Assembly: GCA_028284945.1 (NCBI GenBank)
Contig: JANQQJ010000024.1
Span: 186,001-250,000 of the forward strand
Source: Alphaproteobacteria bacterium
Lineage (GTDB): Bacteria > Pseudomonadota > Alphaproteobacteria > SMXS01
DNA: 64,000 nt
Reading direction: 5' to 3'
The notes under the pieces are model-generated. The model was not told the DNA's origin, did not search any database, and saw only the letters and a list, made by a program, of their open reading frames with translations. Shown here in pieces: positions 553 through 5,935 of the stretch. The first letter of the stretch is position 1. Every line of letters starts with the position of its first letter. A program made the translations under genes and the position numbers.

Positions 553-1227
553 ATGCAACAGAACACCGCACGCCAAACCCGCCAAGTCCAAGCCACAAGT
601 CCGGCCCATCCCGTCGGCGATGCGCGGTTTTGCCTGTTGCTGGGGCGAGAGAATTGGGACCGGCTTCCAGCGCCAGTACGTGCCCGTTTCTCCAAACGAT
701 TGAACGATGGCAAGACAGCGCTTTATAGCGGGATGGTTCTGCGGGCATCCATGCATCCCCTGGGCTGGTTGCTGGCACAGGCGGCGCGGCTGGTTGGCGC
801 GCCCCTGCCGACCCGGCCTGACGTCGATGTCCCGGCGGCGGTTTCCGTCACTGAAGATACCGCCACCGGCGGACAGACCTGGACACGGATCTATGGCCGC
901 CCAACAGGTTTCCCTCAGGTGATTAACAGCGTTAAACGGTTCACCGGGCCAACCGGTCTGGAGGAACATGTCGGGCGCGGTATCGGCATGGCATTGCAGG
1001 TGAGCAGTGATGATCAGGGAATCACTTTCAAGAGCGATCACTATTTCCTGCAACTGGGCGCGGTTCGGCTTCGCCTGCCACGCTGGCTGAGCCCAGGGAC
1101 CGTGACCGTCAAGCATGTCGAGCAGGGTGACGGTGCGTTCCTGTTTGAGCTGACCCTGGAACACCCGCTGATCGGAACCCTGCTGCAACAAACGGCATTG
1201 TTCCATGACACCACGCTGACAAGCTAG
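553..1227 (+). CDS. DUF4166 domain protein
   Basis: A 224-residue protein with no signal peptide or membrane segment. It reads like DUF4166: a stretch of the type RARFSKRLNDG near the start, a glycine-rich middle (ATGGQTWTRIYGRP), then GLEEHVGRGIGMAL and KSDHYFLQLGAVRLRLP, ending with an H-P-L-I-G stretch. The biochemical function of this domain is unknown to me. In many bacteria it is fused to, or lies next to, a saccharopine-dehydrogenase-like NAD(P)-binding protein, exactly as here: the next gene starts 9 bases downstream on the same strand. A weak purine-rich ribosome site (GGGAAAG) precedes the ATG. Confidence 0.75.
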   Translation: MQQNTARQTRQVQATSPAHPVGDARFCLLLGRENWDRLPAPVRARFSKRLNDGKTALYSGMVLRASMHPLGWLLAQAARLVGAPLPTRPDVDVPAAVSVTEDTATGGQTWTRIYGRPTGFPQVINSVKRFTGPTGLEEHVGRGIGMALQVSSDDQGITFKSDHYFLQLGAVRLRLPRWLSPGTVTVKHVEQGDGAFLFELTLEHPLIGTLLQQTALFHDTTLTS

Positions 1228-1236
1228 CAGGACCAG

Positions 1237-2340
1237 ATGCCCGTGCGTGTTCTTTTGGTTGGAGCGGCTGGTGTGTTCGGCCGCAAGCTCGCCGAACAGC
1301 TCGTGTGCGAAAGAGGCGTTTCCCTGGTACTTACTGGGCGGACACGCGCAAAACTCGATGCCTTGGCAGGCGAATTAGGCGGCGGATGCGGCGTGGCGCC
1401 AATGGACAGAAACACCATCTCAGCCAACCACCTCTTGCCACTATCCTGCGATATCGTGATCGATGCGGCGGGACCGTTCCGCCCCGACAGCACAGCATTG
1501 GTAAGTGCCGCGATCGACGCAGGCTGTCACTACATCGACCTCGCCGACGACCGGGAATTTGTCACCACAATAGGGCAATTCGACGCAGCCGCCCGGCAGA
1601 TGGGCGCGGCCGTTCTGGCTGGTGCCAGTTCGACGCCCGCCTTGTCGCACGCCGTTGTGGATGCGCTGATAGATGGATGGTCGCAGGTCGAGACGATCAC
1701 GGTAGCCATCAGCCCCGGCAACCGGGCGCCGCGCGGCCTTTCCGTTGTGCAATCGATCCTGTCCTGGGCTGGACAGCCGGTGAAGGTTTACTCCGGCGGG
1801 CGGTGGACCACTGCACCCGGCTGGGGCCTGACCCACGACATGGATTTTCCGGGCATTGGTTCGCGCCTGGTGTCTCTGTGCAATACACCGGATCTGGACC
1901 TGCTTGTCGAGAGGTACAAGCCGACCCAATCGGCGGTTTTCCTCGCCGGGTTGGAGCTGCGCAGCCTGCACCGCACACTGGAACTTACCAGCCGGCTGGT
2001 CCGCATACGGCTGTTGCCGACTTTGGCGCCGTTCGCCAGACCTGCCCGGCAGGTCGCCGCACTGCTTCAACCTTTTGGCACCGATACAGGCGGTATGGTT
2101 GTTGAAATCGCCGGCCGCAACGCCGCAGGGCAAACGGAAACAGCACGCTGGTCACTGACGGCAAAAGGCGGCAAAGGCCCCTACGTCCCCACCCTGGCAG
2201 CGCTTGCGCTTGTTCGGACAATCCGGGACGGCGGGTTGAGTTTCAAAGGCGCAAAAGCGTGCACCGGGATCCTGACGCTTGATGACTTCAAGGCTGATTT
2301 TGACCGGCTGGGTATTGAGACCAGGCTCGAAAGGCTCTAA
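1237..2340 (+). CDS. Saccharopine dehydrogenase-like NAD(P)-binding oxidoreductase
   Basis: A 367-residue protein beginning with a Rossmann fold: VLLVGAAGVFGRKLAEQL (residues about 4-21) is the dinucleotide-binding glycine motif, followed by VLTGRTRAKLDAL. The segment CDIVIDAAGPFRPDSTALV and CHYIDLADD match the saccharopine dehydrogenase NADP-binding family, which also includes trans-acting enoyl reductase-like and homospermidine synthase-like proteins. The substrate cannot be told from sequence. It lies 9 bases after the DUF4166 gene with an AGGA ribosome site, so the two probably form one operon and work on the same compound. Confidence 0.8.
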   Translation: MPVRVLLVGAAGVFGRKLAEQLVCERGVSLVLTGRTRAKLDALAGELGGGCGVAPMDRNTISANHLLPLSCDIVIDAAGPFRPDSTALVSAAIDAGCHYIDLADDREFVTTIGQFDAAARQMGAAVLAGASSTPALSHAVVDALIDGWSQVETITVAISPGNRAPRGLSVVQSILSWAGQPVKVYSGGRWTTAPGWGLTHDMDFPGIGSRLVSLCNTPDLDLLVERYKPTQSAVFLAGLELRSLHRTLELTSRLVRIRLLPTLAPFARPARQVAALLQPFGTDTGGMVVEIAGRNAAGQTETARWSLTAKGGKGPYVPTLAALALVRTIRDGGLSFKGAKACTGILTLDDFKADFDRLGIETRLERL

Positions 2341-2381: not shown

Positions 2382-2534
2382 CTAGCCCCGCCGTCTTGAT
2401 CGGCGCTTCAGGCCGATACTCGCCGGCACAGCGAGACTGGTGAGCGCCATGTGTTTAGATATCTTTCCATTTGGTTTGGTATCGGTACAAATTGGCGGCT
2501 CAAGCAGTTTTTTCCTATCGAGTTCTAAGCGCAT
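2382..2534 (-). CDS. Candidate second RiPP precursor-like small ORF
   Basis: A 50-codon ORF beginning MRLELDRKKLLEPP, with TDTKPNGKIS at residues 17-26 and a basic end (KRRSRRRG). Its ATG follows GAGAAG at 6-base spacing. It lies divergently from the first ATP-grasp gene, with 90 bases between starts, mirroring the repeat peptide at 4626-4862 (107 bases from the second ATP-grasp gene). Both start M-x-(L/I)-E-L-(D/N) and both contain a K-P-x-G element. These parallels suggest a decayed or single-core relative, but the similarity is short. A plus-strand ORF (2440-2628) overlaps the same bases and ends in an ATGA overlap with the ATP-grasp start, so the coding strand is not certain. Confidence 0.35.
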   Translation of the reverse strand: MRLELDRKKLLEPPICTDTKPNGKISKHMALTSLAVPASIGLKRRSRRRG

Positions 2535-2624: not shown

Positions 2625-3590
2625 ATGATCGTCCTCGTTACGACCCACAGCTGCAGAGGAACGCACAAGGCCGTCGAACGATGGGACGGCACCCCCCGAT
2701 TTAAACGCAGGACCTATTGGTCCATGTTCCACAGCCGAACTGTTCCTCATGCGACTTATGTTTTGACCGATTTCGATCGCATGGGACCTTGGGAGCTTGA
2801 GCTCGCCTCCCATCTGTTTCGCACGCTCAAGGCCGCCGGGCTGAAAGTCCTGAATGATCCAGCAAAGTTCAAACCTCGCCACGCGCTACTTAAGCACCTG
2901 GAACGCGAGGGTTTTAACAGCTTCACATGCTGGAGCCCTGCCCATGGCGGTATGCCTGACCGGTTTCCGGTTTTTTTGCGCACCCAGGCCGCGCATCGCG
3001 GCCCCCTATCAGAGCTACTGCACTCGCCGTCCGACGCCGCAGCGTGCCTCGATCAGGCATTGCAGGCCGGCCATGCGCTGAACGACCTGCTCTTCGTCGA
3101 ATATGCCGCCGAACCAATCCATGAAGGCCTGTTCGCCAAACAAGCCGCATTTCGTATCGGGGACTCAGTCACACCCGGACTGACGGTTTTCTCAGGGTCC
3201 TGGGCAGGGAAGATCAACGAGGACGAAAGGAACCTTTCATCCTTTTATGAACAGGAACGAAAACAGGCAGACACGTATCCCTTTGCCGACCAGGTCATGC
3301 AGATCTTCCAATCAGCAGACATAGACTACGGACGGATCGACTTCGGGATTCACGGCGGCCGGCTGGAAACTTATGAGATCAATACAAACCCCTGGATGGG
3401 CCGCATGACCCCCAAATCCGAAGCCGCGCGGCCCGAAGTCAAGAAGGCCGTGCGAAAACTCTATATTGAAGCGCTCCACACCATCGATTCACCGGCAAGC
3501 AGCAGGCGCGTTTCCCTCGACAGTGAAGTGCTTCAGCGACAACGGCACCGTGATCACAAATGGCTGTGGACCCGGCGCTGGACGCCGTAA
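2625..3590 (+). CDS. ATP-grasp-fold protein, paralogue 1 of candidate RiPP locus
   Basis: A 321-residue protein with ATP-grasp-like features in order: TYVLTDFDRMGPWELELA (about 44-61), VLNDP (75-79), an R-x-x-LLKHL stretch, FPVFLRTQAAHRGPLSELL (114-132), FRIGD (176-180), and the acid/Asn block YGRIDFGI (235-242) plus ETYEINTNPWMG (248-259). In ATP-grasp enzymes the late Asp, Glu and Asn residues bind magnesium and ATP. Such enzymes join a carboxylate to an amine, hydroxyl or thiol through an acyl phosphate. The substrate is not evident. A second copy at 4970-5935 has exactly the same length. The gene converges on the HExxH gene with only 6 bases between stops. The ribosome site is weak. Confidence 0.78.
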   Translation: MIVLVTTHSCRGTHKAVERWDGTPRFKRRTYWSMFHSRTVPHATYVLTDFDRMGPWELELASHLFRTLKAAGLKVLNDPAKFKPRHALLKHLEREGFNSFTCWSPAHGGMPDRFPVFLRTQAAHRGPLSELLHSPSDAAACLDQALQAGHALNDLLFVEYAAEPIHEGLFAKQAAFRIGDSVTPGLTVFSGSWAGKINEDERNLSSFYEQERKQADTYPFADQVMQIFQSADIDYGRIDFGIHGGRLETYEINTNPWMGRMTPKSEAARPEVKKAVRKLYIEALHTIDSPASSRRVSLDSEVLQRQRHRDHKWLWTRRWTP

Positions 3591-3596
3591 CAGGAC

Positions 3597-4574
3597 CTAA
3601 GCCTCACCCATATAAGCCTTTGCATTGTCCATCAATGCGCGCCCCGTATCGGTCAGACGCGCATGATCCTCGACGATTTTGAGCCCATCAAAAAAATTGA
3701 AACGGTCGCGGTCCGCATAAACCTCCGCCATCTCGCGCAAATCGGTGTCGATATTCCGAGTTTTGGCAAGATGGGTCATCGCCCAGTGCATCCGCGCTGA
3801 AACGAAAGTCGCGTGGTAGACTCCATCCATCGGCCGCGGGTCCTGACGCAATGGCGACGCGAACAGCTCACTATCGTCATTCAATACCAACGGCTCGTCA
3901 TAGGTGAACCCGAACAGCAGGGTATGCGCGCCCTCATGGGCCAGGGTTTCGACAATATCGACCGGCGTGCGGCTGAACTTGGGGTTTAGAACGACAAGGC
4001 CCCATAACTGATAGATCGAAGCGCCATCAAATGGGCTGTTCACGTCGGGTCCGTTGGTGGCGAAGACAATCTGCCGGATTAGGGTATTTACTTCATCGGC
4101 AAGCTTGGGCGCAGCCCGGTTGAGCAGGGCAAGACCGTCGCCAAGCCGGCCGACAAAATCCGCGACCATCTGCTCTGGCGGGTCAATGTATTCATCGTCA
4201 GTATTGGCGCCAATGCGGCGGCGGAACATGTCTGCGTCGCCCCTGACCAGCGGGTCAGCGATACTGGTAATGGTGCGTGTGCCGTCAAACGGCACGAGCC
4301 CGGCAAATGCGGTTGATGCCCGGACCGCCGAATCCTCATCATCGGCGACCAGGGCGAACGCCAACTCATAATAGCGGCCGAAAGCAGCCGGCGGGAACTT
4401 CTGGCCTGACCGCAGCGCCCGCGCCACAGCCATGACCGAGGCGTGATCGAAACCGGCCAGGTCTGCCGTCTGTTCGCAAATATGTTCAAGGCTTTCCGCC
4501 AACCCCGCATGCATGCGCGCGTTCAGCCGGGCGGCACGTTCAGCATCGGGCGCGAAATCAAAAAAATCAGCCAT
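3597..4574 (-). CDS. HExxH-motif protein, candidate 2-oxoglutarate-dependent peptide beta-hydroxylase
   Basis: A 325-residue soluble protein. The key block is ETLAHEGAHTLLFGF, with HEGAH at residues 213-217, followed by SELFASPLRQDPRPMDGVYH (235-254). The pairing of HExxH with a downstream SPxRxDxRPxxGxxH stretch is what I recognise from the RiPP-associated HExxH family, some members of which hydroxylate peptide side chains using iron and 2-oxoglutarate. By analogy His213, His217 and His254 would bind metal and the arginines at 243 and 247 the co-substrate; this is inference. The repeat-bearing peptide gene lies 51 bases upstream on the same strand, so the two are probably co-transcribed. A plain zinc protease is the main alternative. 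Confidence 0.72.
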   Translation of the reverse strand: MADFFDFAPDAERAARLNARMHAGLAESLEHICEQTADLAGFDHASVMAVARALRSGQKFPPAAFGRYYELAFALVADDEDSAVRASTAFAGLVPFDGTRTITSIADPLVRGDADMFRRRIGANTDDEYIDPPEQMVADFVGRLGDGLALLNRAAPKLADEVNTLIRQIVFATNGPDVNSPFDGASIYQLWGLVVLNPKFSRTPVDIVETLAHEGAHTLLFGFTYDEPLVLNDDSELFASPLRQDPRPMDGVYHATFVSARMHWAMTHLAKTRNIDTDLREMAEVYADRDRFNFFDGLKIVEDHARLTDTGRALMDNAKAYMGEA

Positions 4575-4625: not shown

Positions 4626-4862
4626 TTAGTCGGAGCCTGTAATGCCGTTTTGTTTGCCGACTTTCGCACCCAGGACAGGAGTGATTTCTTTGAATCGCGA
4701 CGGTCCATTCGGCTTGCCTTCTTTGAGAGAAAGAACAGCACCAGAGTGGTCAAACCGCACGGGACCAATCGGTTTACCTTCTTTAAGGGACAGACTCGAC
4801 TGCCCCTGTGCCGTCAACAGGCGTAACCCCAACATTCTGTCCGCATTCAACTCAATCGCCAT
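4626..4862 (-). CDS. Candidate RiPP precursor peptide with three 20-residue repeats
   Basis: A 78-residue peptide: a leader of about 23 residues (MAIELNADRMLGLRLLTAQG...) and three tandem units beginning at Leu24, Leu44 and Leu64. Units 1 and 2 share LSLKEGKPxGPxRF (x = Ile/Val and Asn/Ser); unit 3 is degenerate (LGAKVGKQNGITGSD) and reaches the stop. Each unit offers Ser, Lys and one Glu that an ATP-grasp ligase could link. The ATG follows GAGGGG with 6-base spacing. The gene lies just upstream of the HExxH gene and divergent from the second ATP-grasp gene. A plus-strand ORF (4642-4887) covers the same bases and also has an SD, and wobble positions coincide, so codon analysis alone cannot exclude it. 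Leader-then-repeats order, the operon position and the relative at 2382 favour this strand. Confidence 0.62.
   Translation of the reverse strand: MAIELNADRMLGLRLLTAQGQSSLSLKEGKPIGPVRFDHSGAVLSLKEGKPNGPSRFKEITPVLGAKVGKQNGITGSD
4629..4793 (-). repeat. Three tandem 60-base units inside the peptide gene
   Basis: Units start at 4793, 4733 and 4673 (reading leftward) with a constant 60-base period. In the 14-codon conserved part of units 1 and 2, 12 amino acids are identical and 9 of those 12 codons differ only in the third base (for example CTG/CTT, TCC/TCT, GGT/GGC, AAA/AAG, CGG/CGA). The protein unit is therefore conserved while the DNA has drifted, which points to an old duplication kept by selection rather than a fresh slippage repeat. 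The third unit is shorter and more diverged. Confidence 0.85.
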
Positions 4863-4969
4863 GGAAAACCCCTCTATTAGCCGTTAGCGTGACCTGGACT
4901 ATAGCCAACGGCTACCCAGCCAACAACTGGTACGAAGTCGTGAGCGCTGCACATCGGGGGACTCCGCGC

Positions 4970-5935
4970 TTGATCACCATCGTTTCAACCCATGCCACGC
5001 GCGGGACGCACAAGCCGGCGAAACAATTCCCCGGCATACCTAAATTTACCCAACGCACTTATTGGAGCTTGTTTCGGCGGCGCAGCATACCGGGCGGCAC
5101 GTATATCCTGACCGATTTCGACAGGCTGGGTCCCTGGGAATTAGAGCTTGCAGCCCATTTCTATCAGTCGATCAAGGCCGCAGGTGCGGCAGTGTTGAAT
5201 GACCCCGGGCGCTTTCTCTCACGCCACACGATGTTGGAACATTTACGGCGACAGGGCCTCAATAGTTTTCGGGCATGGAGCCCGGTTCTGGGCGAATTTC
5301 CGGACCGTTTCCCGGTTTTCCTGCGCACCCAGGCAGCACATCGCGGCCCAAAGTCTGACCTGCTGACGGATGAAGCCGAGGCACGCGCCGCCCTCGATGC
5401 CGCTGTCGCAGAGGGCCATCCGCTTGCCGATCTTATCTTCATTGAGTACTGCGCTGCCCCGGAAGAAAACGATATTTTCATCAAATATTCTGCCTATCGG
5501 ATCGGTGACGCCATTGTGCCGTCGATTTCGACCATGAGCCTGGGCTGGGTGGCCAAGATCGGTGACCGCGCCTGTGGAAAACAGGACCAGTATGATCAGG
5601 ACTACGCCCGCATTGAGGACTACCCCTATACGGATCAGGTGATGGCCATCTTTGAGGCTGTCGGTCTGGAGTATGGGCGCATCGATTTCGGGATCGTGGA
5701 GGGCAATATCGAAACCTATGAGATCAATACGAATCCCTGGATGGGCATGCCGTCGGAACACCCGATCCCGATCCGGATCAAGGCGACAGAACTGGTCCGG
5801 AAAAAATATGCCGACGCCATGCGCCAGCTCGATGCGATGCCGGCGGGCGAGCGCATCCGGTTGGATCGCCCCATTTTCAAGGATCAACGGGCCCATGACG
5901 GGCGTCGGCTTTTCCTGACCCGCTGGACACCCTAA
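4970..5935 (+). CDS. ATP-grasp-fold protein, paralogue 2 of candidate RiPP locus
   Basis: A 321-residue protein from a TTG start. The open frame extends further upstream, but the TTG aligns exactly with the ATG of paralogue 1 (LITIVSTHATRGTHK versus MIVLVTTHSCRGTHK), gives the same length, and has a GGGGGA ribosome site 8 bases before it. Shared blocks are TYILTDFDRLGPWELELAAH, VLNDPGRF, FPVFLRTQAAHRGP, YRIGD, GLEYGRIDFGI and ETYEINTNPWMG, and both end in TRWTP or RRWTP. It probably catalyses an ATP-dependent ligation on the neighbouring peptide; that link is inferred from position only. The peptide gene is divergent from it, so a shared promoter region lies between 4863 and 4969. Its stop is 2 bases from that of the LLM oxidoreductase. 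Confidence 0.78.
   Translation: MITIVSTHATRGTHKPAKQFPGIPKFTQRTYWSLFRRRSIPGGTYILTDFDRLGPWELELAAHFYQSIKAAGAAVLNDPGRFLSRHTMLEHLRRQGLNSFRAWSPVLGEFPDRFPVFLRTQAAHRGPKSDLLTDEAEARAALDAAVAEGHPLADLIFIEYCAAPEENDIFIKYSAYRIGDAIVPSISTMSLGWVAKIGDRACGKQDQYDQDYARIEDYPYTDQVMAIFEAVGLEYGRIDFGIVEGNIETYEINTNPWMGMPSEHPIPIRIKATELVRKKYADAMRQLDAMPAGERIRLDRPIFKDQRAHDGRRLFLTRWTP

Follow-up and report, generated by a model that had tools for sequence, protein, structure and literature searches.

Positions 4626-4862 of a 64,000-nucleotide stretch of alphaproteobacterial DNA (the window, by which we mean the whole stretch that was analysed) hold repeated units that can be read as a peptide on either strand. This raises the question of which strand is the gene and, if it is the minus strand, what the peptide and the enzymes encoded beside it might make.

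Repeated units in two overlapping frames

The minus-strand open reading frame has the product MAIELNADRMLGLRLLTAQGQSSLSLKEGKPIGPVRFDHSGAVLSLKEGKPNGPSRFKEITPVLGAKVGKQNGITGSD, and the G-rich site AGAGGGG is present ahead of its ATG. The parts of this frame, and the frame opposite to it, are as follows.

4626..4862, minus strand: predicted precursor peptide P1, 78 amino acids, with an ATG start and AGAGGGG 5' of it; top-ranked with homologue profiles
4794..4862, minus strand: leader of P1 (residues 1-23), MAIELNADRMLGLRLL..., which has diverged from the LDxxKLLGF[RK]L of the family
4734..4793, minus strand: P1 core unit 1, LSLKEGKPIGPVRFDHSGAV, with wobble changes relative to unit 2
4674..4733, minus strand: P1 core unit 2, LSLKEGKPNGPSRFKEITPV, with wobble changes relative to unit 1
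4629..4673, minus strand: P1 core unit 3, LGAKVGKQNGITGSD, of the three units the nearest to the family consensus LGAKVGGK
4642..4887, plus strand: the proposed rival frame, judged not to be a gene, since its counterpart is interrupted by stops in 14 of 24 homologues

Units 1 and 2 are near-identical tandem copies of 20 residues, and unit 3 (LGAKVGKQNG) is a diverged third copy that ends the array. The units are as the first-pass annotation of this DNA had described them, and its statement that nine of twelve conserved codons change only at the third base was reproduced. Units 1 and 2 have 12 residues in common, the codons of which differ only at the third base in nine cases and are identical in three, and the 12 base differences between the two units number 1, 2 and 9 at the first, second and third codon position, an excess at the third (9 or more of 12) that has P = 0.004. 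A genome-wide search of the source genome found no true second copy of P1. The plus-strand frame 4642-4887 is also present and, as had been pointed out, shares its third codon positions with the minus frame, so the comparison of units 1 and 2 is by itself insufficient to decide the strand.

Genes adjoining the repeated peptide

As previously noted, a gene for an HExxH protein follows P1 in the same direction. A divergent gene on the other side of P1 encodes a putative ATP-grasp ligase, G2; the first-pass annotation had recognised neither this partner nor the precursor family.

3597..4574, minus strand: aKG-HExxH-type peptide beta-hydroxylase by its match to TIGR04267, 325 amino acids, in the same direction as the precursor and 51 nt downstream of it
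4863..4969, no strand: intergenic region between the precursor and the ATP-grasp gene, with the divergent layout in 13 of 13 loci that have this ATP-grasp
4970..5935, plus strand: predicted RimK-like ATP-grasp ligase G2, 321 amino acids, divergent from the precursor, with a TTG start aligned with the ATG of G1
2625..3590, plus strand: predicted ATP-grasp paralogue G1, 49% identical to G2 and its sister in the tree
2382..2534, minus strand: probable second precursor P2, 50 amino acids, with a possibly decayed core, divergent from G1; leader MRLELDRKKLL

The product of 3597-4574 matches TIGR04267 with 112.2 bits (cut-off 40) and is related to ChlH (8s5f) by profile (E 3e-9), a protein whose family was shown to hydroxylate RiPP precursors (PMC12636437). 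Its HExxH motif reads HEGAH; HExxH and SPLRxDxRPMDGxxHAT are invariant in eight homologues, and the motif P-x-R-x-D-x-RP-x-x-G-x-x-HA is common to this protein and ChlH. The AlphaFold model, at pLDDT 65.5, was too poor for fold comparison, with SjiH at rank 3 (E 0.43). By its sequence matches, the protein is assigned to the aKG-HExxH peptide beta-hydroxylase family.

G2 has no match over the cut-off in Pfam or NCBIfam, including the Pfam ATP-grasp, RimK-family and graspetide ligase models; matches to DnaJ, D-Ala-D-Ala ligase and SPRY obtained when the window was searched against these databases lay far under the cut-offs and were dismissed. Its AlphaFold model (pLDDT 72.4, pTM 0.74) has the fold of an ATP-grasp ligase. 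The best Foldseek match of the model is the graspetide ligase PsnB (E 3.5e-7), and by VIA-align both RimK and LysX reach a higher Z than PsnB. RimK is the nearest fold (Z 15.8, 3.7 A, 246 residues aligned), yet G2 has no RimK-family HMM match. The Mg-binding D...E-x-N motif of ATP-grasps is present as D239, E251 and N253, which are invariant in ten homologues. Judged from the model, G2 is a member of the ATP-grasp ligase superfamily. No sigma-70-like promoter was matched in the intergenic region 4863-4969, and a search of Rfam gave no match.

P2 is probably a second precursor, perhaps one that is decaying. Its start resembles the family leader, and the likeness of the start region at 2534 to that of P1, reported in the first-pass annotation, is real but weak: P2 ranked second of 825 open reading frames when the precursor profile had 8 members (E 0.04) and was indistinguishable from noise when it had 24 (E 6.5). 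The core of P2 looks degenerate (SIGLKRRSRRRG). The position of G1 as sister of G2 in the tree fits a duplication of a precursor-ligase pair. Two further genes of this end of the window, for a DUF4166 protein (553-1227, plus strand) and a saccharopine-dehydrogenase-like protein (1237-2340, plus strand), are not common to the homologous loci.

Homologous loci and the coding strand

A search of genome contigs with G2 as a single protein gave no matches. With a two-row alignment of G1 and G2 as query we obtained five loci, including those of Rhizobacter, Hydrogenophaga and a gammaproteobacterial MAG, in all three of which an HExxH gene and a small open reading frame lie divergent to the ATP-grasp gene, as in the window. 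In the final set the three-component unit (HExxH gene and precursor, with the ATP-grasp gene divergent) is found at 13 loci including the window, and thus in 12 other genomes, some of them of the window's own class. An HExxH gene with a precursor is found at 17 loci besides the window, with 24 homologous precursors in all; one locus (L057) is counted although its HExxH gene is truncated by the contig end. Shared-neighbour analysis of these loci found nothing in common beyond the HExxH and ATP-grasp genes, and no transporter, exporter or protease in the conserved unit; other shared flanks were between a few loci only or were antisense readings of the HExxH and ATP-grasp genes. Plasmid collections yielded distant relatives only.

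These homologues bear directly on the strand. We searched the 825 open reading frames of at least 25 amino acids in the window with a profile to which only the 24 homologous precursors contributed, leaving out the window sequence. The minus frame 4626-4862 ranked first with E 9.6e-5, the runner-up having E 6 and the best reversed frame E 1.9, and it also ranked first of the 825 with the 8-member profile. The plus frame 4642-4887 was absent among the top matches of the 24-member profile. The antisense frame equivalent to it, in which third positions again face third positions, has internal stops in 14 of the 24 homologues, a count that leaves out the codon overlapping the sense stop codon. Further support is provided by pN/pS, which was lower in the minus than in the antisense frame in six of six close homologue pairs (0.33 versus 0.56 in one pair, for instance, and 0.39 versus 0.58 in another). 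All of the homologous precursors were selected as open minus-type frames, so their openness is no evidence; the evidence lies in the conservation of motifs, in position and in the antisense stops.

The opposite assignment, with the plus frame as gene and the minus repeats as its shadow, has some appeal, in that this frame is uninterrupted, comes with a GGAG site and shows a mirror image of the repeats, but it is the minus protein that is conserved at homologous loci while the antisense frame is broken and has the higher pN/pS, and we give this reading almost no credence. The first-pass annotation had preferred the minus strand, considered its peptide to be under protein-level selection and proposed a comparison of dN/dS in both frames, with homologues that keep the plus frame open and interrupt the minus frame as the outcome against it. 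The pattern found is the reverse, and all 24 homologues keep the leader and core motifs and adjoin an HExxH gene. On this comparative evidence the strand is settled, and the predicted gene is the minus frame 4626-4862.

Leader and core of the precursor family

Nearly all of the 24 homologues have the leader LDxxKLLGF[R/K]L, with Leu in 20, Asp in 23, Lys or Arg in 22, Leu in 23, Gly in 24, Phe or Tyr in 24 and then Arg or Lys in 19. G-x-K is found in the cores of 22 of the 24, often as tandem LGAKVGGK units; examples are one precursor of locus L042 (L042A, KLGAKVGGKTTAPVVRLGAKVGGKAGIKNIGASLGAKVGSKIGFKSKA) and that of L057 (TGAKIGKPPAIGAKIGKPPVIGAKVGK). The motif of P1 unit 3 recurs in precursors of L033, L042, L043 and L054, and as GAKIGK or GAKVGK in L057, whose GAKIGKPP units are the closest to the KEGKPIGP of the window. 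Against the reading of P1 as a precursor of this type with two modifying enzymes, its own leader is diverged (ELNADRMLGLRL) and its units 1 and 2 are KEGKP variants that fall short of a full GxKxGxK.

At least three Lys residues follow the leader in every homologous precursor (24 of 24). Asp and Glu are no conserved part of the repeat motif: none follows the leader in L011, a single one does so in L009, L032, L043, L055 and L057, and the motif of window unit 3 has none. The C-terminal residues vary among homologues (D, R, A, T, G, A, V, S, Q, N and others), while the internal GxK is conserved. Overall, a short precursor with a conserved leader, a variable core and an adjoining enzyme, as expected of RiPPs in general, is found across species in 24 precursors from 17 loci.

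The family also varies in the number of precursors and in the partner enzyme. Six tandem precursors with near-identical leaders and different cores lie in L068 (4733-5967, minus strand) with one HExxH gene and two ATP-grasp genes; several tandem precursors at one locus are typical of precursor arrays. At L035 (4002-5091) we observed a decayed copy of the cluster, with ATP-grasp fragments containing stops and an HExxH remnant. In the tree, a single clade (support 0.90) contains the ATP-grasps that have HExxH neighbours, and 15 of its 17 members are of this kind. Among the six loci examined in which an ATP-grasp homologue lacks an HExxH neighbour, none has a convincing precursor: three have no precursor match (L008, L012, L036), the best matches of two reach only E 0.65-0.79 (L037, L013), and the last (L034) has only a 204-amino-acid frame with E 0.016 and without the leader motif.

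Other carboxylate-activating enzymes occur at loci without the RimK-like ligase. Short cyanophycin-synthetase-like ATP-grasp proteins lie beside an HExxH gene and a peptide with the family-type leader in L055 (5254-7062, minus strand) and L074 (1847-3766, plus strand), and in L056 (1267-3792, minus strand) an adenylation-carrier-thioesterase protein has as neighbours an HExxH gene and a precursor in which LGRLFSKRG occurs as two units. These three loci are a supporting hint for the coupling of a carboxylate to the core, as proposed below. L069 has no carboxylate-activating neighbour, but its genome also contains L068. In L075, where an AMP-binding enzyme accompanies the HExxH gene, there is a weak precursor candidate upstream (5227-5337, minus strand, MKIDLKKLLSLKVPSAGAAKVGD..., E 0.009).

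Discussion

It is highly probable that P1 is a RiPP-type precursor encoded alongside two modifying enzymes. We infer a pathway in which both enzymes would act on this peptide. The N-terminal LDxxKLLGF-type leader would present a C-terminal core of about three repeats based on G-x-K-x-G, and would itself presumably be removed. The HExxH enzyme, a member of a non-haem Fe/alpha-ketoglutarate oxygenase family, would hydroxylate the repeats, lysine or a residue next to it being the most likely target. For aKG-HExxH enzymes in the literature, the hydroxylated residues are Asp, His, Gln or Pro (PMC12636437, PMC13060819). In the present family Lys is the conserved functional side chain, with at least three after every leader, and Lys or a neighbour is therefore our best guess for the hydroxylated position. 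The RimK-like ligase would activate a carboxylate as an acyl phosphate and couple it to the core through an amine or hydroxyl group, with lysine side chains the most likely site. Lysine is favoured as the acceptor because it is the conserved nucleophile and Asp and Glu are not conserved; taken by itself, this ligation to lysine is given somewhat less than an even chance.

An ATP-grasp ligase requires a carboxylate. Since the cores have no conserved Asp or Glu, and L011 has neither residue beyond its leader, a graspetide linkage between side chains cannot be general. This leaves a carboxylate from outside the peptide, with which Lys would be acylated or aminoacylated, or else the peptide's own C-terminus; the donor, like the biological role of the product, can only be inferred. 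The most far-reaching reading compatible with these data, to which we give somewhat less than an even chance, is an undescribed RiPP class with an LDxxKLLGF leader and GxKxG repeats, in which HExxH hydroxylation would be followed by (amino)acylation of lysine by a RimK-like ATP-grasp, a cyanophycin-synthetase-like ATP-grasp or an adenylation-carrier-thioesterase protein, giving branched hydroxylated lysine peptides.

A ligase that extends the peptide C-terminus by amino acids, as RimK or the PEARL enzymes do, with the product released from the end and the repeats serving as a scaffold, would suit a fold closest by VIA-align to RimK, which adds Glu to a C-terminus. RimK and LysX-ArgX amino-acid ligases share the ATP-grasp fold across the whole G2 model (Z 13-16), but G2 is only about 14% identical to them, has no RimK-family match and lies with a dedicated precursor and a hydroxylase. 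PEARL scaffold-peptide systems (ammosamide, PMC11117183) also add to a ribosomal peptide with ATP, whereas no PEARL enzyme was found in these clusters. In either form the variable C-terminal residues and conserved internal GxK make C-terminal extension unlikely. We consider it quite unlikely that the cluster makes a canonical graspetide, the ATP-grasp forming a macrolactam or macrolactone from Asp or Glu to Lys, Ser or Thr and the HExxH enzyme merely decorating it. Graspetide pathways (microviridin, plesiocin; PsnB and MdnC ligases) do combine a precursor with an ATP-grasp ligase, tandem repeated, multi-unit cores are known among them, PsnB heads the Foldseek matches and units 1 and 2 of the window contain both K and E (KEGK). 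However, the cores described above do not have the conserved Asp or Glu acceptors, the ligase matches no NCBIfam graspetide ligase model and is nearer to RimK and LysX than to PsnB by VIA-align, and its partner is an HExxH enzyme.

In fold, HExxH enzymes are similar to zincin proteases, and oxidative cleavage of its precursor is known from PflC, which is also able to hydrolyse truncated precursors (PMC12636437). The HExxH protein of the window might accordingly be pictured as a trimming protease, with the peptide serving as a signal or toxin once cleaved, instead of being hydroxylated, and with the ATP-grasp acting elsewhere. Its match over the cut-off to the aKG beta-hydroxylase family, the motif in common with ChlH and the co-occurrence of ligase and precursor in 13 loci make this very unlikely. 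We class the three-gene set with the RiPP-type clusters that have an aKG-HExxH enzyme, and apart from the graspetides. Known aKG-HExxH pathways (ChlH/SjiH-type, BpmH of the biphenomycins, PflC/PosC and the nitrilobacillin pes cluster) likewise place an HExxH beta-hydroxylase beside a short precursor, but their partners are radical SAM, MNIO or AS-like enzymes (PMC12636437, PMC13060819) in place of a RimK-like ATP-grasp ligase. No published counterpart of an LDxxKLLGF-like leader or GxK-like core was found, and searches of open-access papers turned up no description of the leader string or of the pairing of HExxH and ATP-grasp enzymes.

The precursors are short and have no Pfam or NCBIfam model over the cut-off, and so are easily overlooked by annotation. 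The present family gives the aKG-HExxH enzymes, themselves recognised only recently, a further precursor type that can be told by its leader and core, and it places beside the HExxH enzyme a type of ligase unreported in PMC12636437 and PMC13060819. With three genes the unit is minimal and therefore directly co-expressible. Overall, the occurrence of one leader with varied partners suggests a modular system, in which hydroxylation would be constant and the acyl-activating step exchanged.
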